A stretch of DNA of 64,000 nucleotides from Lachnospiraceae bacterium. GTDB lineage: Bacteria > Bacillota > Clostridia > Lachnospirales > Lachnospiraceae. Below are positions 35,794 through 45,873 of the stretch, piece by piece; position 1 is the stretch's first letter, and the number at the start of each line of letters is the position of its first letter. The notes beneath the pieces were generated by a model. The model saw only the letters and a list, made by a program, of their open reading frames with translations, was not told the origin of the DNA and searched no databases. A program made the translations under genes and the position numbers. The stretch lies in the NCBI GenBank assembly GCA_022794255.1, contig JAAWEL010000036.1:1-64000 (forward strand). The letters are read 5' to 3'.

Positions 35794-37071
35794 TCATTCA
35801 AAGCGGTAGCGATAACACGCTATACAGATCTCATCTCCTGTGTTAAGCTTTGCTTCCTCATTATTTTCCAGCAAGCGCCCGCAAAGCTTCGTGCCATTCG
35901 TTGAATTCAGATCCTTTATCCGGTAAGTATCCCCATCCTGATCAATTCGCAGATGCAGCCGGCTAACCGTATCCCGCTCCAACTGAAAATCTACCAGACT
36001 TTCCTGTTTTCCTATTACAAACGGATAATATAATATAGGAATGTCTTGTTCTTTTGGATTCAGCGCTCTTAATATTCTTTGACGTTTGTTATCAGAAAAA
36101 TCAGCCAGCAGTTGAGTTCCCGGTCCTGCAGATGGTGTGTCCTTCTTCTGTTCATCATCCATGTCAATGATCTCCCTCTGCCACAGCTTTCCCCCCTTTC
36201 CAAAATCTCTTTCCTCCTCTTCGCTGTCCTGGAACATCATCTCCCAGGGTGGCCGTATTGGCAGATCTTTCTCCTTGCTATTTCTCAAAAAATATCCTCC
36301 GCTCCAATCCTTCCATTTTTGTTTCCATGAAGCTCTCTTCCCTGGTGTTTTTTCCTGCTCTTTTGTACTTAAATAGCTTTCTTCTCTCTGTCGTTTGTCT
36401 GGATTCTTTCTTTGATTTCCAGAAATATTTAACCGCTTTTTTCCTGTTTCTTCATATTGTTTATAAACATCTGGCTCATCAGATATCTCTTGCCCTGATA
36501 TATCATCCTTTTTCTTCTCTTTATCATTTGTCTTTCCCTGCTGTAAAAGACGCCCCAAATCCTCCATCCCATAATTTTCTTTTCTAGTCTCCTGATATAG
36601 GCCATAGGCCAATACCACACTTTCCTTATCTTGATGATCAACGCTTCCCAGCAAATACTCTAATAATTTACTGAAATCTTCTGGAAAATTTCTCTCTATG
36701 CCCGGAACAAAACATAACCAAACACGGAATGTATCCGGATCCACATATAAATACTGAGGCTCCAGCAAAATTCTCTCCTCCATCAGAAGATATCGTTCCG
36801 CCCGTTCCAGTACTCCAAAGATCCCAATAACCAGCCTTCGTATTTCCTCTGCCTGAATATTTCGGTTTTCCAATATTCTGGACAATGGTTGTCGTGACGT
36901 AATCTCATAATAGAATCTCACTCCGCTATCCATTTGCCGGAGCTGGAACCGCAAAACGCCCTCAATCGAATTCCTTGACATCATCTGGCTTTCATACCCC
37001 TGCCATGTCAATTCCTCTGGATCTATAATCAGATAATTATGTTTAAACTCCCTCCGATAACTAATTTTCAT
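35794..37071 (-). CDS. FHA-domain protein of the Tad locus (DUF6382-like N-terminus)
   Basis: The 425-aa protein begins with a globular domain (residues 1-170) resembling DUF6382, found with FHA domains in Lachnospiraceae. A long charged low-complexity linker (about 170-330) follows. The C-terminal FHA domain (about 345-425) has VIGKQESLVDF, RDTVSRLHLRI and LNSTNGTKLCG, all the phosphothreonine-binding residues. This links the pilus locus to Ser/Thr kinase signalling, perhaps through TadZ or the ATPase. It is the last gene of the minus-strand Tad run, 21 bp after a TadE-like gene. Confidence 0.8.
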   Translation of the reverse strand: MKISYRREFKHNYLIIDPEELTWQGYESQMMSRNSIEGVLRFQLRQMDSGVRFYYEITSRQPLSRILENRNIQAEEIRRLVIGIFGVLERAERYLLMEERILLEPQYLYVDPDTFRVWLCFVPGIERNFPEDFSKLLEYLLGSVDHQDKESVVLAYGLYQETRKENYGMEDLGRLLQQGKTNDKEKKKDDISGQEISDEPDVYKQYEETGKKRLNISGNQRKNPDKRQREESYLSTKEQEKTPGKRASWKQKWKDWSGGYFLRNSKEKDLPIRPPWEMMFQDSEEEERDFGKGGKLWQREIIDMDDEQKKDTPSAGPGTQLLADFSDNKRQRILRALNPKEQDIPILYYPFVIGKQESLVDFQLERDTVSRLHLRIDQDGDTYRIKDLNSTNGTKLCGRLLENNEEAKLNTGDEICIACYRYRFE

Positions 37072-37092: not shown

Positions 37093-37452
37093 TTATTCTG
37101 CCAAGCTCCACATTCTCAGAGAATTTTCCGGTCTGAATATCGGCACTGTAAGCTCTAATCCCCAACGGATTCCCTGAGACCGTCTTATAATTTCCTGCTC
37201 ATCCTTATTTTCGATCTGGTGACGCGCTCTCTCTACCTCCTCATGCAAAACAAATTTTCCCACAGTCTCTCCTCGGACATGGAAGGCCTGATTTAACAGA
37301 ATCATTATAACAAAGAAAATAATTGCCATCACACCTGCCGCCTCAACCGTATAGCTGGCGATCACTTCTTTCTTTAGACCATTTTTCAATACCCCGAAAA
37401 AAATATGTACTGCGTGAAAACAGCGATAAAACATCCTTTTTATATGAAACAC
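37093..37452 (-). CDS. Small TadE-like pseudopilin
   Basis: The 119-aa protein has a basic N-terminus and one membrane helix in SYTVEAAGVMAIIFFVIMILLNQAF, where the glutamate preceded by SYTV matches TadE-type prepilin sequences. A short outer domain follows. The start is GTG, with AGGA six bases upstream inside GAGGAAGGAG. It follows the small prepilin peptidase gene after nine bases and may be its substrate. A minor pilin or assembly protein is the likely role. Confidence 0.65.
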   Translation of the reverse strand: MFHIKRMFYRCFHAVHIFFGVLKNGLKKEVIASYTVEAAGVMAIIFFVIMILLNQAFHVRGETVGKFVLHEEVERARHQIENKDEQEIIRRSQGIRWGLELTVPIFRPENSLRMWSLAE

Positions 37453-37978: not shown

Positions 37979-38896
37979 TCATCTTCCGCAGTAAGAACAC
38001 GCACCCAGATGTTCCACCTCTGACAGTTTTACTGCCCGTGCAAATGCCACAATTGCCCTGCAGCTTTTCCCGGAATGATAGCTACTACCACTCGGCATAA
38101 TAAATACCACTCTCCCGGCATTTTTCCCGCAGACTGAACAGGGATAATATTTTCCTCCGCTATCATTGCGCATGTTTCCCACCTGTTCCTTAGACACAGA
38201 AGTTAATTGGTTTGCCAGATAGTGACATTCTCTGCTTCTGTGATAGCGAGTACTGTTTTTTCCCACATAGACAACCGGATCCTCCTCTTTTTGGCCTCCT
38301 TCTCCTTTGCTGTAGTCTTTTCCTTCCCTTCCAACCCACGCCCTTCGTCTGCACCGGGCCGTCCTCTCTAATGCAGGTATTCCAAGCACCGGAAATGGCA
38401 GATGGATCTCATAGTCTAAAACCAGGTCAATGCTTTCCCCATCCTCTAAAACTTGAGAACGAGCCATGGTAATATGTCTTACTGCATTTGTATCCACATA
38501 CTCCCCGATCCTGGCCTGTGCATATCCCTGTGCTGCACCAGATATCAGGTGCCGACAAAACTCTTTCGCAAAGTCTCCTGCCCCTGGTATCGCAAATATC
38601 TTTCCTTTATCCTGCGCATCTTTCACATACGCATATTGGCTGAAATCCTCCCCCATCATTTCCAGTGCTGCCTGCATCCGCCGCTCCGTGTTCATAACCT
38701 TCATAGGAAGAATCAGGCAAACCGAAGCAAAAATAAATAAAGTGAGACACATCACAGCCTCCAAAGTCAGGGAAGCCGGGACAGACAGGAATGTCTTTTT
38801 GCCATGACAAGCCTTTCCTGTATGTATTTTGAATTCATTTAGGATTCGTACCTGGAGAGTCACGATTTTTTTATTTTTTGTCCTGGAAAAAGACAT
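37979..38896 (-). CDS. TadE-like protein with two C-terminal Cys/His repeats
   Basis: The 305-aa protein has a basic N-terminus, then VPASLTLEAVMCLTLFIFASVCLIL, a TadE-like transmembrane prepilin segment, and an outer region. After a charged linker come two related units. The first has RYHRSRECHYL and PCSVCGK; the second has SYHSGKSCRAI and ACSYCGR. The pattern YHxxxxC...CxxCG resembles motifs found at the C-terminus of some secreted nucleases and wall proteins and may bind zinc or form disulfides. A start at the ATG 22 bp after the previous gene is used. I know of no Tad protein described with this tail. Confidence 0.7.
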   Translation of the reverse strand: MSFSRTKNKKIVTLQVRILNEFKIHTGKACHGKKTFLSVPASLTLEAVMCLTLFIFASVCLILPMKVMNTERRMQAALEMMGEDFSQYAYVKDAQDKGKIFAIPGAGDFAKEFCRHLISGAAQGYAQARIGEYVDTNAVRHITMARSQVLEDGESIDLVLDYEIHLPFPVLGIPALERTARCRRRAWVGREGKDYSKGEGGQKEEDPVVYVGKNSTRYHRSRECHYLANQLTSVSKEQVGNMRNDSGGKYYPCSVCGKNAGRVVFIMPSGSSYHSGKSCRAIVAFARAVKLSEVEHLGACSYCGR

Positions 38897-38917: not shown

Positions 38918-40864
38918 TTAATAGCTGCGCTCGATTGCCACTTCCATAGGGTAACAATGGTCTTTCCTTCCAGCAATTCTCTCCACAAATCCCAAAGAAA
39001 AAAACACATGCTTCCCCACCAAACTTCCCTGAATCTTTGCCTGGTAAATTCCGCGGCGCATCCGGAAACTGCTCTGCCTCCGGCAAATATTCATCTGAAT
39101 CATATCCATCATACGGTATTCCTGACACACAATCTCATCCATAAACAACAATATCTTTAACCAGGAAAGATAACCCAGTCCATCTTCCCCACCACCTGTT
39201 TCGCTCCTTCCTTCTCGCCCCATAGCCAGTAACTGTTCCAAATCTAAGGTCCAGTGTTCGGATTTTTTAAAAATCACCACTTGTTTTCCCGCCAACAAGC
39301 CCCGAATATCCATCAAAGACTCGCCCAAAGCCCACACAGACATCACAAAAAAGGCTGTAAGAAAAACCAACGGAGAAAATCCGGTCACTCCAGTGATTGC
39401 CATTGCCAGCTTTTGAGCCTCCTGCCGTTTTTGTCCATCTCCCATAATGTGAAGCAGGTTTAAGCCTTCCCGAATGGCAAGAAGCCGTTTTACTGCACAG
39501 ACAAGATTTTCCTCATCAGCACTTTTCCCTCCGATCAGATATTCTATCTCATAAGATAAACCACCTGTGCCTTTTACTCCCACATTCTGATTGTATTCCT
39601 CTTCTATGAGGAAATACCGAAAAAATTTTCCACAATATTCATTAATAAGTAAATGATCCAACAAAGTGCCTTCCTCTGTTCTTCCTGTACAAATCTCACT
39701 ACCAGAGGGAAGCTCTGTATTCTCTAAAATTCCCTCCGAAACAGCTTTCCCGTCTGGCAGCACCAGATCTAAAAGTCCGGAATTATACAAACTTTCCACT
39801 TGCTTTAGCCAGTTTTCTGTTTTTTTGTCCTTGACCCCATGGGAAAAAGACAAGAGGCGAATGGAAAGCTGTTGAAAATGATATTTTACTGGTGACCATA
39901 GGGCATCTAAATCCGGCCCATCATCTTCATCATCATCGCTTTCCCACTCTCTGATAATTCTTTCGACCTCCAGCGCTTCTTCTATCACGGATTCTACCAG
40001 GGCTATCTGGGCATATGACTGCTCCTCTAAGGCTTCTATCTCTCTACGGCGTTTTCCATCCTGATCTACATAGGCCTCAAACTGATATATCTCCGTCTCC
40101 AGCTGTCTTTCTGCCAGACTGCTGCAATCCTCTTTCTTCTCCTCAAAAAATGATCTGCTTTGTCCCAGTTTTTGGGCCAGAACATCTGCCTGTTTTGAAT
40201 AGGTTTTTACCAGTCCAGGCATCCGTTTAAACTCCCGGATCAGCTCTGTAGCTGTACGGCAAAATCCGGATCCATCATATCTGTGAAGCTGTAAAAGCGC
40301 TTCCTGTTTCTTGTCCATCTGCGTTCTTTGACTTTCACTGATATTTTCCAGAGCTTTTTCCAGCTTTAATGCATCCTTTGCATGTCCCCGGTAAACCTCT
40401 GCCACATCCTTGACTGCCTCTGCCTGCTGCCCATCCTCCTTAAGCTTATCCACTGTGTCTGCATCAAAATCCATGTCCCATACTCCATATTTCATATAAT
40501 CCAAAATCTCTTTTTCCAGATAAGCTCCTCCATCATCTGTAGCTCCCAGCCATTCCTCCACTTTTACCTTTTGAATCTCCATGGGATACCAACCTTCCTT
40601 TTCCAGATAAGGTTTTATAAAACCGGAAAAATCAGCTTCCAGCTCCTCTTCTCTCTCATATTCCACAAACAGCAAGCGATAGGAATCCCAGAGCTGACGG
40701 TGATACTGGCTGAATACAGAATCCATTGCTGAAGCCGCACTTGTCTGCAGATACCATCGTGCTCCCGCTGTACGGGCCGATTCCAAAAGTCCGCAAAGAA
40801 GCGCAAATATGCACATCATTACCATGCTGATAAAGATCGTTACCTGTCCTTTTAGTACTTTCAC
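38918..40864 (-). CDS. DUF5702/TadG-like surface protein of the Tad locus
   Basis: The 648-aa protein begins GQVTIFISMVMMCIFALLCGLLESARTAG, a TadG-type membrane helix near the N-terminus, followed by WYLQTSAASAMDSVFSQYHRQLWDSYRLLF. These match the DUF5702 family of Lachnospiraceae Tad loci. The middle (about 150-330) is a long coiled coil, and a hydrophobic segment near 490 (FSPLVFLTAFFVMSVWALGE) is probably a second membrane span. It is likely a minor pilin or an anchoring protein outside the membrane. The start is GTG with AGGAGG seven bases upstream. Confidence 0.75.
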   Translation of the reverse strand: MKVLKGQVTIFISMVMMCIFALLCGLLESARTAGARWYLQTSAASAMDSVFSQYHRQLWDSYRLLFVEYEREEELEADFSGFIKPYLEKEGWYPMEIQKVKVEEWLGATDDGGAYLEKEILDYMKYGVWDMDFDADTVDKLKEDGQQAEAVKDVAEVYRGHAKDALKLEKALENISESQRTQMDKKQEALLQLHRYDGSGFCRTATELIREFKRMPGLVKTYSKQADVLAQKLGQSRSFFEEKKEDCSSLAERQLETEIYQFEAYVDQDGKRRREIEALEEQSYAQIALVESVIEEALEVERIIREWESDDDEDDGPDLDALWSPVKYHFQQLSIRLLSFSHGVKDKKTENWLKQVESLYNSGLLDLVLPDGKAVSEGILENTELPSGSEICTGRTEEGTLLDHLLINEYCGKFFRYFLIEEEYNQNVGVKGTGGLSYEIEYLIGGKSADEENLVCAVKRLLAIREGLNLLHIMGDGQKRQEAQKLAMAITGVTGFSPLVFLTAFFVMSVWALGESLMDIRGLLAGKQVVIFKKSEHWTLDLEQLLAMGREGRSETGGGEDGLGYLSWLKILLFMDEIVCQEYRMMDMIQMNICRRQSSFRMRRGIYQAKIQGSLVGKHVFFSLGFVERIAGRKDHCYPMEVAIERSY

Positions 40865-40929: not shown

Positions 40930-41118
40930 TTAATATACTTCCTTGGATTGACTGTTAATCTCTTTAAAGATATCTTCCAGCAACTTATTGATTTGTCCTT
41001 TAAAAATAATAACCAGCCCAATCAACACCACCAGAATCAACACTACTTCAATAACACCAACCCCATCCTCTTCTCTCAAAAATTCCAGTATCTCCTCGTT
41101 TAAGCTTCTCTTTTTCAC
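40930..41118 (-). CDS. flp: Flp type IVb pilin
   Basis: Main pilus subunit. The 62-aa prepilin has an 18-residue charged leader, then the cleavage motif EDG/VGVIEVVL with glutamate at +5, and a single hydrophobic helix (LILVVLIGLVIIF), the exact plan of Flp1-type pilins. A short charged C-terminus remains outside. The start is GTG ten bases after AAGGAG. It lies between tadC and the DUF5702 gene. Only one Flp gene is present. Confidence 0.9.
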   Translation of the reverse strand: MKKRSLNEEILEFLREEDGVGVIEVVLILVVLIGLVIIFKGQINKLLEDIFKEINSQSKEVY

Positions 41119-41143: not shown

Positions 41144-42361
41144 CTATCCCATTGTCATCATTGCTGGTACCATGATCATCACCATCACAATGCCCAACAT
41201 CAAAAACAATGGCAGCAAAAGCTTTGTCCCTGCCTCCTCGCCTAAGCGGCGAGCCAGGTTTTTCCGTTGTTCCAGGGCATCTGCCATCTCTGTCTGCAAG
41301 ATCGCCCTCATATTTTTTGTTCCTGACTTCCGGTTCTGTTCCAGCAATCCACTTAATTTCAAATATGGTTGCAATCTGCATCTTCTGCCAAATTCTCGGT
41401 AAGCCTCTCCCTCGGACATGCCCCCCTGCATCTGATAATAGGTTCTGCTCATCTCCTCATAAGCAGCCCGTTTTTGCTGCTTTTTTTGTTTCCTCCCTGT
41501 CTCATAATCCCACACCATTTTCTCCCAGGCATTGCGGACTGTCAGACCTGCACCAGTCAAAACCATAAGCTTAGACAAAACGTCCGAATAATCCAATAAA
41601 AGCTCCCTCTCCCGTTTCTGGTTTTCCTGCCTTATCTGGCTTTGCTGCCTTGCTGTCAGCAAAACTGCCAGAAGGATTCCCAACAAAATAACCGGCTCAT
41701 ACCCAGAATTTTCCTCGGTCCAATAGCTTAGCTTCCTTCCCTGAAAGCTTTCCGGCAGACTTATCCAAGGTTCTTCTTTTTGTTCCTCATCTCTCTGCCG
41801 CAGTACCATGAGAAACTCTGCAATTCTTCTTTCCTCCTCATTTTGTATTGGAGGAAGCACTCTCACCGGAAATTCATAACTTTGCTTAAAAGCTCCGGCC
41901 GAAAGTTCCACAGACAAAATAACAAACAGCTCCTTTTCAGCCTCCTTCAAAAGCTTTCCGGATGGAGCCAGTATCTCTGAATCAGAGGAATACCACCGCA
42001 ACCGCACCCCTCCATCTATCTGAGATGGCAGTGACAAATCACTTCTGACCTCCATCAATGATGGATTCTCTCCCAAAATCTGCTCTCCCATCTGTTCCAT
42101 GATTTTCTCAAAAACTTCTTCCGCCTCCTTAGCCGTATAAATTTGTGGTTTTACCGGAACAGTCACTGCTACTGGCTCATCCCCCAGCCCACCCACCCAC
42201 ACCTGATATTCTCTCTCCTCACCTCCATGGCTTTCTCTGTTAATACGCATATCCGGCGATATAATACTCTGCCCAGTGTCTGTCAGCCTGAGTGTCCCAT
42301 AAAGTACAATGCTTCCAATAACACAAACCAGAGGAATAAACCATTGTTTTTTGCCTTTCAT
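41144..42361 (-). CDS. tadC: TadC-type inner membrane platform with extracytoplasmic N-terminal domain
   Basis: The C-terminal 190 residues form a T2SS-F domain with LLLDYSDVLSKLMVLTGAGLTVRNAW, the helical LKLSGLLEQNRKSGT segment and closing spans, typical of TadC. Unusually, residues 1-200 are an added region: a first membrane span (FIPLVCVIGSIVLYGTL), then an outside domain with VRLRWYSSDSEILAPSGKLL, a pattern of atrophied bacterial Ig-like domains, before the second span near residue 225. Standard TadC proteins are about 300 aa. The ATG at 42361 follows GAGGTG close to the tadB stop. Confidence 0.85.
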   Translation of the reverse strand: MKGKKQWFIPLVCVIGSIVLYGTLRLTDTGQSIISPDMRINRESHGGEEREYQVWVGGLGDEPVAVTVPVKPQIYTAKEAEEVFEKIMEQMGEQILGENPSLMEVRSDLSLPSQIDGGVRLRWYSSDSEILAPSGKLLKEAEKELFVILSVELSAGAFKQSYEFPVRVLPPIQNEEERRIAEFLMVLRQRDEEQKEEPWISLPESFQGRKLSYWTEENSGYEPVILLGILLAVLLTARQQSQIRQENQKRERELLLDYSDVLSKLMVLTGAGLTVRNAWEKMVWDYETGRKQKKQQKRAAYEEMSRTYYQMQGGMSEGEAYREFGRRCRLQPYLKLSGLLEQNRKSGTKNMRAILQTEMADALEQRKNLARRLGEEAGTKLLLPLFLMLGIVMVMIMVPAMMTMG

Positions 42362-42367
42362 TCTGTC

Positions 42368-43237
42368 CTACACCTCTATCTCCAATATCTTTTTTGCCGT
42401 CACATAAGAAATCAGATACATCACCAAGCATATGCTCATCAATATCCGCCCCATACCGGTACCATACATCTGTCCGAAAAAACCTGGAGATGAGCTTTCC
42501 ACATAAAAGACTATAAAAAACGGAATCATGTTCATAATCTTCTGTTCAAACTGTCGGGATGCTGTCATGGTAAGAATCTCTTCCCTTACCTGCATCTTAT
42601 CCCGGATTATCTCTGCCGTGTGCCTCATAATACTTCCCAGATCCCCGCTGCTGCGTTTTGCCACAGAAAACACCTCGGCAAAGCTTTGCACATCCTCCAG
42701 TCCGCTTCTCCTGGCAAAATCCTCTAAGACCTTTTCCACAGGGCGATTGGTCCGAATCTGCTGTACCATAAATGCATATTCCTGAACAATCATTCCATCT
42801 CTTCCATATAGCATAGACAGCTCCTCCACGCTTACCGACAATGCATTTTCTATAGAAAATCCTGCACTGAGAGAAGCTGCAATAATCATCATGCTCTCTT
42901 TGAACTGGACCGCTAGCTCCTTTTTCCTCTGCCGGATCCTCTTGCGTCTCTCTGTCGCAGCCCCTACAAGCGCCAGAGGGCTTATCCACAAAAACACCTT
43001 TATACTCCGGTAAAAGGTAAAGGATATCAGCATACATACCCCGGCCCCCTTTCCTATTCCCAGAGCAAATTCCCACAGCTTCAGCCTGTAGCAGTCATAC
43101 CGGATAGCCGGCTGCCTTAAGTTTTCCCACTGCCTGAAGGGAACCGATTCTTTTAAGCTGCCCCCGGACTGTTTTCCCGCCTCCTGGCTCTTCCTCAAAC
43201 CGGAAGAGCGGGTTAAGCCGTATCTCTCCCTCCTCAT
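42368..43237 (-). CDS. tadB: TadB-type inner membrane platform protein
   Basis: Partner of TadC in the pilus motor platform. The 289-aa protein has two N-terminal spans, a T2SS-F domain (ELAVQFKESMMIIAASLSAGFSIENAL, FAEVFSVAKRSSGDLGSIMRHTAEI) and two C-terminal spans. The ATG at 43237 has GGAGGTGGG at correct distance but lies inside tadA, so the two reading frames overlap by 143 bp. The family-like part starts only at YDCYRLKLWEFALG, beyond the tadA stop. Either the first 45 or so residues are a real extension or a non-standard start lies further down. Confidence 0.87.
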   Translation of the reverse strand: MRRERYGLTRSSGLRKSQEAGKQSGGSLKESVPFRQWENLRQPAIRYDCYRLKLWEFALGIGKGAGVCMLISFTFYRSIKVFLWISPLALVGAATERRKRIRQRKKELAVQFKESMMIIAASLSAGFSIENALSVSVEELSMLYGRDGMIVQEYAFMVQQIRTNRPVEKVLEDFARRSGLEDVQSFAEVFSVAKRSSGDLGSIMRHTAEIIRDKMQVREEILTMTASRQFEQKIMNMIPFFIVFYVESSSPGFFGQMYGTGMGRILMSICLVMYLISYVTAKKILEIEV

Positions 43238-44312
43238 AATTTCCCACCTCCACAATCTCCAACACCCGCCTGCTTCTGTCCCGCAGCCTTCCCAAATGTA
43301 CCAGAATATCAATGGCAGAGGCAATCTGACTACGCACTGCGGGAAGAGGCAGATCTGCCCCCATCAGTGCCATAGTCTCCAGCCTGGATAACATATCCTT
43401 AGGGCTGTTCCCATGACCCGTGGAAAGACTCCCCGCATGCCCGGTGTTTAATGCCTGCAGCATATCAAGACACTCCTTTCCCCGCACTTCCCCCACCACA
43501 ATCCTGTCAGGCCTCATCCTCAAGGATGCACGAATCAAATCACTGATCTCAATTGCTCCTTCCCCCTCTCCATTGGCATTGCGAGTCTCCATCCGTACCA
43601 GATTAGGAATCTGACGAATCTGCAGCTCCGCCGAATCCTCTATTGTTATGATCCGTTCTGTCTCAGGAATAAAACCAGACATGGCATTTAAAAATGTGGT
43701 TTTCCCAGAACCGGTCCCACCGCTGATAAACAGGTTATACCCAGATCTAACCAGTTTTTCTAAAAACTCTGCCACCTCCTTGGTCAGAGAATTGAGTGTT
43801 ATCAACCTCTCTGCTGTGATTGGTTCAGGAAATTTTCGTATTGTGACTACCGGACCGTCCAAAGCTATAGGAGGAAGCACCACATGGACCCGGGCACCAT
43901 TTTCCAGCCGGGCATCTGCAATCGGATGAGACACATTGACTGACCGGTTAATACGGCTCACTATCTGCTGAATCATATCCTCCAACTGCTCTTCCCGCTC
44001 AAATCCGTGGTTCCACTGGCTGATAGTCCCCTTCTTTTCCACAAATATATGATCTTTGCCATTTACCATAATCTCTGTCACATCCGGGTCATCCACCAAC
44101 TCCTGGAGAATATCCAAACGCCGGAATGCATCATAAAGCCGGGTTCTGAACTCTAACCGCTTCTTTAGAGGAAGGTAGTTATCTTTTGCTGCTTCCTGAA
44201 TCACCCTGTTAATACATTGGTTCAGCTCTTCCTCCTCAATCCGGTTCCAGCTCTGCAGCTCTGCCCGTATCTGCTCCTTTAGCTGTTCCAAAATACTGCT
44301 TTCCTCCCTCAT
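43095..44312 (-). CDS. tadA: TadA/CpaF-family pilus assembly ATPase
   Basis: Hexameric ATPase that powers pilin extrusion. The 405-aa protein has the N-terminal region FRRLDILQELVDDPDVTEIMVNG, the Walker A motif GGTGSGKTTFLNA, the Asp/Walker B region RIVVGEVRGKECLDML and LNTGHAGSLSTGHGNSP. The C-terminus is complete. The ATG overlaps the tadZ stop as ATGA. It follows tadZ and precedes tadB, the conserved Tad order. Confidence 0.95.
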   Translation of the reverse strand: MREESSILEQLKEQIRAELQSWNRIEEEELNQCINRVIQEAAKDNYLPLKKRLEFRTRLYDAFRRLDILQELVDDPDVTEIMVNGKDHIFVEKKGTISQWNHGFEREEQLEDMIQQIVSRINRSVNVSHPIADARLENGARVHVVLPPIALDGPVVTIRKFPEPITAERLITLNSLTKEVAEFLEKLVRSGYNLFISGGTGSGKTTFLNAMSGFIPETERIITIEDSAELQIRQIPNLVRMETRNANGEGEGAIEISDLIRASLRMRPDRIVVGEVRGKECLDMLQALNTGHAGSLSTGHGNSPKDMLSRLETMALMGADLPLPAVRSQIASAIDILVHLGRLRDRSRRVLEIVEVGNYEEGEIRLNPLFRFEEEPGGGKTVRGQLKRIGSLQAVGKLKAAGYPV

Positions 44313-45316
44313 CTTTTACCTCCCTCCTGCCCTTTCAACAGATTTCTGATAAAATCCCCCATTTCTCCCCATAGCAGTTGTTCAAGATAAGTCTCTGTCT
44401 GCCATACCGCACCAGGACGGGGAAGCTTTAAAATACGTACTCTCTCCCACAGATACGGCCGTCCTGACCTTATCAAATATTCTTTCCATTCTTCCATCTT
44501 AGCAGTTGAAACACAGTCCTCCTTTGCAGGGGTATAAATCACATTACACAATTCCAGAAGTGGTTCCATCCCTCTTCCCAAATGGCCTATATCCACCACA
44601 ATCACATCATAGACTCCTTCCGCCGCAATCTGGCCAATGAGACCGGCCAACTCACCTCCTTGTATCTCTGCCAAATCCTCCCCATAAGCTACTGGTGGAA
44701 TGTAGTCAAGACCTCCCCAGTTATGGACCACCGCGCCTAGCCCCATGCGGGTATACGTTCCTTGCCGATATTCATAGATCAAATCAGAAAGACTTGTTTC
44801 ATGGATGATCCCCATCAGCCTTGATAATCCGGAATATTCCTCAAGGCTCAAAAATAATGTCCGTGATTCTCTTGCAAAAATCTGTCCCAGCGTGAGAGAA
44901 AAACCAGTCTTGCCACATCGATTTACAGGAGAATAGACTCCCATCACCACACTTTTTATTCCAACTGCCACCGGGGGAATTTTCTCCGGCTGTACCTGAT
45001 AGCATGCCATCACCTCCCGCAGCACCGCATCAGATGCCTGATATTTGTAGATGACCGGCAAATCCTCTCCCGAAATCTCCCGGCTCTCACTAAGCCTTAT
45101 GATTTGAGCGACCTTTATCTGAGAAAGGTGACCTTTATCAACCTCATCTCCTATCAGCAGCAACTCCAATGGCTGTTCCTTTGCGAAAGCCTCCATCCGT
45201 GTAATGCTGTTAAAAGCTACCACTGTAAAGGGAATCTGCTCCCTCTGATTGGCAAAGTCCGCAAAGCGGTCTGCATAAAATGGATCCACATCGTAGACCC
45301 CCATAATCCGTTTCAT
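44309..45316 (-). CDS. tadZ: TadZ/CpaE-like pilus localisation protein
   Basis: MinD-like ATPase that positions the Tad machinery at the membrane. Residues 1-125 form a receiver-like domain without an obvious phosphorylation aspartate. The ATPase part begins GVYSPVNRCGKTGFSLTLG, a deviant P-loop as in TadZ, and continues with VYDVIVVDIGHLG. The ORF track starts 36 codons early, but GAGGAG four bases before the ATG at 45316 gives MKRIMGVYDVDPFYADRF (335 aa). It overlaps tadA by four bases. Confidence 0.85.
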   Translation of the reverse strand: MKRIMGVYDVDPFYADRFADFANQREQIPFTVVAFNSITRMEAFAKEQPLELLLIGDEVDKGHLSQIKVAQIIRLSESREISGEDLPVIYKYQASDAVLREVMACYQVQPEKIPPVAVGIKSVVMGVYSPVNRCGKTGFSLTLGQIFARESRTLFLSLEEYSGLSRLMGIIHETSLSDLIYEYRQGTYTRMGLGAVVHNWGGLDYIPPVAYGEDLAEIQGGELAGLIGQIAAEGVYDVIVVDIGHLGRGMEPLLELCNVIYTPAKEDCVSTAKMEEWKEYLIRSGRPYLWERVRILKLPRPGAVWQTETYLEQLLWGEMGDFIRNLLKGQEGGKR

Positions 45317-45360
45317 AAATCTCCTCTCTGTCACCACACAATCTAGCCCCTCAAAAATGG

Positions 45361-45873
45361 CTATATCTTCATGGCAGCGGCCCCAGAAATAATCAAATAT
45401 AAATAAGTTCCTGCAGCCATGCATGGTGCCATCGGTATGGTATTTTGAAATTCCTTTACTCTATCTTTGCAATATTTCTTTGTTCTCCCTGTCCGAAACA
45501 TCTGCATGAAATATACAGAAAGATAAATAAGACGTGTTTTTAGACCTTTACCGTGTCCAAGACAGCACAGCGACCAGAATGCTCCGATCAACATTCCTGT
45601 AAAAATTGCTTCCAATCCCCCATCCATGCCCAAATATCCGGCAATCACAGCCATCAGCTTTCCGTCACCAGCGCCCATCATCCCCATTCGAAATAATAGA
45701 AATGCAAAAATCATCACAACCAGCGCTGCCTGCAAAAACACTTCGCCCCGACACCAGATTCCAGCCACCGATCCGGCTATAAGCCACCAGTTCCATATCT
45801 TTCCCTCTGACACATCTGTCCAGGCAGCTCCTGCCAAAATCAGGCACAATAATCCTGTCTCTATCCCTTTCAC
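45361..45873 (-). CDS. Prepilin peptidase, A24 family (TadV/CpaA-like)
   Basis: First gene of the Tad run. The 170-aa membrane protein has the catalytic aspartates in AAWTDVSEGKIWN (Asp20) and MGAGDGKLM (GxGD). It likely cleaves the Flp leader, since this position next to tadZ is usual for TadV. The GTG start given by the ORF track directly abuts GGAG with no spacing; an in-frame ATA four codons later or a TTG further on are alternatives, so the exact N-terminus is unsettled. Confidence 0.85.
   Translation of the reverse strand: MKGIETGLLCLILAGAAWTDVSEGKIWNWWLIAGSVAGIWCRGEVFLQAALVVMIFAFLLFRMGMMGAGDGKLMAVIAGYLGMDGGLEAIFTGMLIGAFWSLCCLGHGKGLKTRLIYLSVYFMQMFRTGRTKKYCKDRVKEFQNTIPMAPCMAAGTYLYLIISGAAAMKI

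Follow-up and report, generated by a model that had tools for sequence, protein, structure and literature searches.

A TadE-type minor pilin with a tandem, putatively zinc-binding module in a Lachnospiraceae Tad operon

What could a pilus subunit do with two small modules of histidine and cysteine residues at its C-terminus? This question is raised by a gene on contig JAAWEL010000036.1 of Lachnospiraceae bacterium (assembly GCA_022794255.1), of which we analysed the first 64,000 nucleotides (the window). An open reading frame (ORF) at 37979-38896 on the minus strand, where the plus-strand frame holds many stops, encodes a protein of 305 residues, P0001, that combines a pilin-like body with a tandem of such modules. 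Modular minor pilins are already known as a kind; a TadE-like pilin carrying a tandem putative zinc module is new, and its architecture is well documented by the comparisons given below. The proposal as a whole, to which we assign a probability of roughly 45%, is that P0001 serves as a modular pilin at the tip of a Tad pilus and binds a ligand, most probably DNA or some other polyanion, through its zinc modules.

A pilin body with two conserved C-terminal modules

The first-pass annotation of this DNA had described a TadE-like pseudopilin ending in two YHxxxxC...CxxCG repeats, and both halves of that description were borne out. P0001 comprises, in order, a long leader, a prepilin-like segment (A41|SLTLEAVMC), a pilin-like body and the two tandem modules. 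It is anchored by a prepilin signal of class III, [G/A]|S-x-T-x-E, and has the Glu at +5 and the long N-terminal helix expected of TadE minor pilins; among 99 orthologues examined at full length E46 is present in all and G or A occupies position -1 in 97. The repeats read Y218-H219-x4-C224 ... C253SVCG (C253-x2-C256-G) and Y273-H274-x4-C279 ... C300SYCG (C300-x2-C303-G), so written that each module offers one His and three Cys. Pfam and NCBIfam scans of P0001 returned zero matches at E <= 1, and the TadE model PF07811 leaves P0001 itself unmatched while detecting 9 of 34 orthologues at E <= 0.1 (best 2.6e-6).

The genetic surroundings agree with a pilin. The operon combines flp, tadA, tadB/tadC and prepilin peptidase genes, the peptidase match lying under the Pfam cut-off, and flp with tadA, tadB and tadC recurs in all seven loci of the same type that have sufficient flank (L031-L034, L133, L134, L138), the co-occurrence which the earlier annotation had proposed to look for. 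A gene for a DUF5702 protein stands upstream of the P0001 orthologue in 33 of 33 loci. Judged by sequence, P0001 is a TadE-type minor pilin in a complete Tad/Flp operon.

Conservation is concentrated in the modules. In the 34-protein alignment, which was used for both the profiles and the AlphaFold2 models, all eight His and Cys residues are among the invariant positions, and mean column entropy is 1.65-1.70 bits in the modules versus 2.5 bits in the poorly conserved pilin body (residues 63-195). The 99 orthologues retain H219, C224 and C256 without exception, C253, H274, C300 and C303 in 98 cases and C279 in 97, and 96 of them hold both modules by pattern. Of the remaining three, one gene is interrupted by a stop codon (1 TAG; L162 in G030), another differs only by I in place of Y before the first His (L159), and the third (L163 in G062) has lost one Cys per module through C253G and C279S. 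This last is the sole read-through orthologue with a lost ligand Cys, as if both sites had been abandoned together.

Across 150 genomes of the Lachnospiraceae, sampled at one per genus, 143 genera have a match to P0001. Several of the seven genomes without one are incomplete drafts; five also have no DUF5702 match, in one (G068, L131) the two modules are degenerate, and the last (G007, L132) has a Tad system of another type alone, with a TadE-like protein devoid of modules. This second type, which coexists with the first in G117 (L139), differs in that its DUF5702-like proteins are longer and its TadE-like proteins (L132, L139) carry no modules, and the L139 copy has beside it a PP2C phosphatase, a Ser/Thr kinase-like gene and FHA proteins. 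In outgroup families, the TadE protein of Tad-like loci bears either a single module (L076 in G357, L081 in G430) or two degenerate ones (G444), so the fusion of pilin and module is probably older than the Lachnospiraceae, and the tandem pair probably arose by duplication of one module.

AlphaFold2 modelled the tandem on its own with a mean pLDDT of 87.6 and the entire protein with one of 80.9. The prediction comprises one helix spanning residues 40-96, more helices up to residue 133, three strands within 139-185, a low-confidence linker at 189-201 and two compact small modules.

Relatives of the module in secreted proteins and Ada

Profiles of each module, built from the 34 orthologues, were compared by hhalign. 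Modules 1 and 2 align with each other end to end at 98.7% probability, so the repeat pair is not a product of chance. Each profile also matches the tails of secreted Bacillota proteins at 98.0%, in agreement with the resemblance to secreted nucleases noted earlier. Such tails, at the C-termini of exported proteins, consist of YH-x3-4-C and C-x2-C separated by about 18-36 residues, and the P0001 modules conform to this pattern. The secreted-protein (nuclease) tails in turn match a second variant, FHxxxC...GYxPCKxC, at 97.7%; that variant matches canonical Ada at 97.5%, and members of it exceed the curated cut-off of PF02805 (Ada_Zn_binding). L077 has the two variants on neighbouring genes. Along this chain the methyl-accepting Cys of the Ada motif [YF]CRxSC is replaced by His, so the modules do not share Ada's set of four Cys ligands and methyl-phosphotriester repair is not expected of them. 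PF02805 itself matched neither P0001 nor the tandem modules, found nothing over its cut-off in the source genome, and gave single-module tails values of 2e-4 to 0.05, below the cut-off. The top four results of a PDB search with a single-module profile were all Ada, at an E-value of about 0.25, which is not significant alone. As far as profile comparison can place it, the module is homologous to the secreted Bacillota tails and, through the chain, to the Ada zinc domain; it would represent an extracellular branch of the Ada zinc superfamily for which current domain libraries have no model.

The orthologues thus keep their repeats, and no known family covers the fusion: neither NCBIfam nor Pfam has a model for it, and it is not described in the literature searched on Tad pili of this group, the 'sunset domain', Ada domains on extracellular nucleases, or DUF5702/DUF6382. 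Two other assignments were rejected, namely classical zinc-finger matches confined to a local CxxCGK at the end of module 1, and a Pygopus PHD match (E 0.006), taken as chance, that covers module 2 together with the end of module 1. The NCBIfam 'sunset' domain NF051437 is possibly related, through a sub-threshold match (5.1e-5) to the FHxxxC tail of L094 (residues 416-453), but it differs from the P0001 modules in that only 1 of 34 tandem modules gave a weak match (0.26) and none of 20 single modules did; 'sunset' models in NCBIfam also exist for variants of ribosomal proteins.

Outside the Lachnospiraceae we sampled 41 carriers of the module, with matches (one protein may fall under more than one domain) to SNase in 13, Lactamase_B in 9, Cu_amine_oxidN1 in 6, TadE in 2 (PF07811, best 6.1e-8) and Endonuclea_NS_2 in 1. 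For five Lactamase_B carriers (L064, L072, L084, L094, L096) the best NCBIfam result, below cut-off, was the C-terminal metallo-beta-lactamase part of ComEC/Rec2. At L108 (1354-2518, G200), a small lipoprotein-like ORF and a thermonuclease are adjacent and each ends in an Ada-like module. Single-module matches are further encoded in three phage records (MT836647.1, PQ571303.1, MT839113.1; one a Ruminococcus gnavus phage) and two plasmid records, and PHROG 14556 also terminates in one module; full-length P0001 had no match among plasmids.

Probable metal, position and ligand of the modules

With one His and three Cys, each module could plausibly hold a structural zinc, and the odd count of Cys is ill suited to disulfides. 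From this pattern we consider it probable that the modules bind zinc. The earlier annotation had allowed for metal or disulfides; the metal is favoured by the single-copy modules and by the chain to Ada, and disulfides are the less likely of the two. A disulfide-stabilised or redox module is conceivable insofar as cysteines outside the cell can pair and each protein has six, but the single-copy relatives have an odd number, three Cys with an invariant His, and the orthologue alignment contains no conserved Cys beyond the modules. The CxxC spacing and the His/Cys pattern also follow the Ada zinc site, and the host is probably an anaerobe; we regard the disulfide or redox explanation as very improbable.

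The TadE/F/G-like minor pilins of Myxococcus form interchangeable tips with exposed variable domains (PMC12075869). By analogy, the tip here would consist of P0001, the DUF5702 protein and the small TadE/F-like protein, with the modules exposed, and published models of Tad tips make this location of P0001 likely. In the proposed mechanism, one or the other A24 peptidase would cleave the class III signal peptide. P0001 would pack, through its long helix and small beta sheet, with the TadF-like protein and the TadG-like DUF5702 protein to build the complex that initiates the Flp pilus and hence becomes distal. A flexible linker (about residues 189-207) would then display two extracellular Ada-superfamily modules, each holding one structural Zn(II) through its His and three Cys. 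The pair would form the head with which the pilus binds its ligand, DNA or some other phosphate-rich polyanion being the most likely target, a role that the same module would probably play on secreted nucleases and ComEC-like proteins.

Near-absolute, family-wide conservation of the ligands would also be expected if the zinc modules had a structural role only, stabilising the tip complex or its subunit contacts without any outside ligand, and the P0001 orthologues are always accompanied by the same partner genes. Such a role is improbable in our view given that the TadE-like proteins of the second Tad type (L132, L139) do without modules, that module number varies from one (L076, L081) to two in the Lachnospiraceae, and that unrelated enzymes use the same module.

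For the proposal of a ligand-binding head, the near-universal tandem pair suggests, short of proof, that the pili bind to extracellular DNA or to a charged polymer of similar kind. The identification of the ligand as DNA or a polyanion is tentative and draws on the companions of the module, on its net positive charge and on Ada, which is a DNA-binding protein. The module pair carries +4.3 on average versus -0.9 for the pilin body, with a wide spread (standard deviation 2.4-3.0 per module). Positive charge fits any polyanion, however, and a wall or mucus polymer is a serious alternative ligand. The protein could act at the tip as an adhesin for polymers of the cell wall or the host, such as teichoic acid, mucin or a glycan, with the zinc modules as a general surface-binding head; the module does occur on secreted proteins without a nuclease domain (the Cu_amine_oxidN1 carriers and the hydrophobic-repeat protein L058), and known modular pilins bear adhesin modules, among them lectin and vWA (PilB/PilC of S. 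sanguinis, summarised in PMC12075869). Against such an adhesin, which we judge somewhat unlikely, more than half of the sampled carriers (23 of 41) are DNA-acting or ComEC-like enzymes, although this is not an unbiased rate because profile A3 was built from earlier matches including nuclease tails and part of the sample was gathered with PF02805. The DNA binding of Ada, a distant relative, likewise speaks against it.

Besides this sampling bias, several results weigh against a DNA-gripping head derived from the Ada superfamily. Direct comparison of the module and Ada profiles gave only 2.7-3.5% by hhalign, the two being linked through intermediates alone. Foldseek searches of the tandem and full models against PDB and BFVD gave nothing significant, so the Ada link rests on the profiles; a few Ada-named viral proteins among the non-significant results were not used as evidence. 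Six of the carriers are Cu_amine_oxidN1 proteins, and another four are similar membrane proteins without a link to DNA. ComEC was present in 16 of 16 genomes, with or without the module, and its co-occurrence was set aside as an uninformative test of DNA uptake. Lastly, a separate PilT/pilin cluster of the source genome could serve uptake. This type IV pilus-like cluster (L130, 7517-12704; contig C54, about 21.5-26.7 kb) contains a T2SSF platform protein and a PilT-type ATPase, together with four small pilin-like ORFs and a secreted protein resembling transglutaminases; the source genome showed no ATPase of the PilB type. Replacement of the Tad system by a PilB-type ATPase was also considered and dropped, very strong T2SSE matches occurring in 4 of 7 genomes scored as lacking the gene versus 1 of 9 bearing it, which are too few.

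Use of the pilus in DNA uptake is doubtful on present indications. To our knowledge, natural competence in these gut bacteria has hardly been explored. Micrococcus luteus is known to take up DNA in a Tad-dependent manner (PMC4322843), and the same is reported for Liberibacter (PMC8513845). A near-universal and uncharacterised pilus subunit of a large bacterial family now has an identifiable functional head, and the ligand of these Tad pili thereby becomes testable with one purified fragment. Should that ligand be DNA, the head would be a candidate receptor for it; with a wall or mucus polymer as ligand, it would be a colonisation factor.

The operon and its place among known systems

The operon, on the minus strand, begins at 45873 and ends at 35794, with its genes in the order of Table 1. 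Two A24-type prepilin peptidases are encoded, one at each end of the pilin genes, and the second lies directly 3' of the P0001 orthologue in many relatives.

Table 1. Features of the Tad operon and of P0001 (window coordinates)
Feature	Position	Strand	Basis
A24-type prepilin peptidase 1 (TadV/CpaA-like)	45361..45873	-	sequence alone, without family search
TadZ-like protein	44309..45424	-	operon position and sequence, without family search
TadA/CpaF-type ATPase	43095..44312	-	T2SSE 1.1e-53
TadB-like platform protein; real start probably inside listed ORF	42368..43324	-	T2SSF 1.3e-7
TadC-like platform protein	41144..42361	-	T2SSF sub-threshold, operon position
Flp-type major pilin, 62 residues, GTG start, processing site EDG|VGVIEVV	40930..41118	-	sequence, locus comparison
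DUF5702 protein directly upstream of P0001, putative TadG-like minor pilin (N-terminus, position)	38918..40864	-	PF18960 match
TadE-type minor pilin with tandem putative zinc modules (P0001, 305 residues)	37979..38896	-	ORF, orthologue searches, ligand conservation
P0001, mature pilin start: predicted cleavage A41|S42, E46 at +5, hydrophobic alpha1 helix (one helix in model, residues 40-96)	38699..38773	-	Glu +5 in 99/99, G/A at -1 in 97/99
P0001, module 1, residues 208-257, putative ligands H219 C224 C253 C256, own conserved RNxxGxKY segment	38126..38275	-	alignment, model, profiles
P0001, module 2, residues 263-305, putative ligands H274 C279 C300 C303	37982..38110	-	alignment, model, profiles
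A24-type prepilin peptidase 2, directly downstream of P0001	37462..37920	-	PF01478 1.8e-4, under curated cut-off
Small TadE/F-like minor pilin (SYTVEAA)	37093..37452	-	sequence; position kept in several relatives
DUF6382-FHA protein, operon end	35794..37071	-	DUF6382 1e-57, FHA 3.6e-13

With the TadE/TadF/TadG and Kil 'Tip' complexes of Myxococcus (PMC12075869), P0001 shares the class III signal, the pilin-like body and the TadG-like and small TadE/F-like neighbours in a tad operon. The Myxococcus complexes carry their C-terminal modular domain on the large TadG/KilN, whereas here a putative tandem zinc module is carried on the TadE-like subunit. CpaL of Caulobacter (PMC12607857) and the bimodular PilB of Streptococcus sanguinis (PMC8179133) likewise join a pilin-like module to a functional C-terminal module, and CpaL further resembles P0001 in its G/A-X4-F/E processing site, which [G/A]|SxTxE matches, and in the lollipop-plus-module layout of the P0001 model. 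Their modules are vWA, in neither case an Ada-like zinc module.

The Ada metal-binding domain (PF02805; N-Ada10, PDB 1adn, 1zgw, 1u8b) has four ligands in the same order and shares the G[YF]xPC-x2-C end with the nuclease-type modules, to which it connects through the FHxxxC intermediates; it differs in its first ligand, the methyl-acceptor Cys, and in the lack of a significant direct profile match. The YH-x3-C...GYxPCxxC tails of secreted Bacillota proteins, found on thermonucleases, ComEC-like metallo-beta-lactamase-fold proteins, a non-specific endonuclease and copper-amine-oxidase-N proteins, contain the same module by profile (98%), which appears in single copy on the TadE proteins L076 and L081. 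P0001 departs from these tails in the family-specific RNxxGxKY of module 1 and in bearing two tandem copies on a pilin. That the Lachnospiraceae Tad pilus is a DNA-capture pilus, its receptor made from Ada-derived zinc modules placed on a tip pilin, is an unlikely possibility; such a receptor, if real, would bind DNA by other means than the ComGD/ComGF tip patch that Com pili use (PMC12153270).
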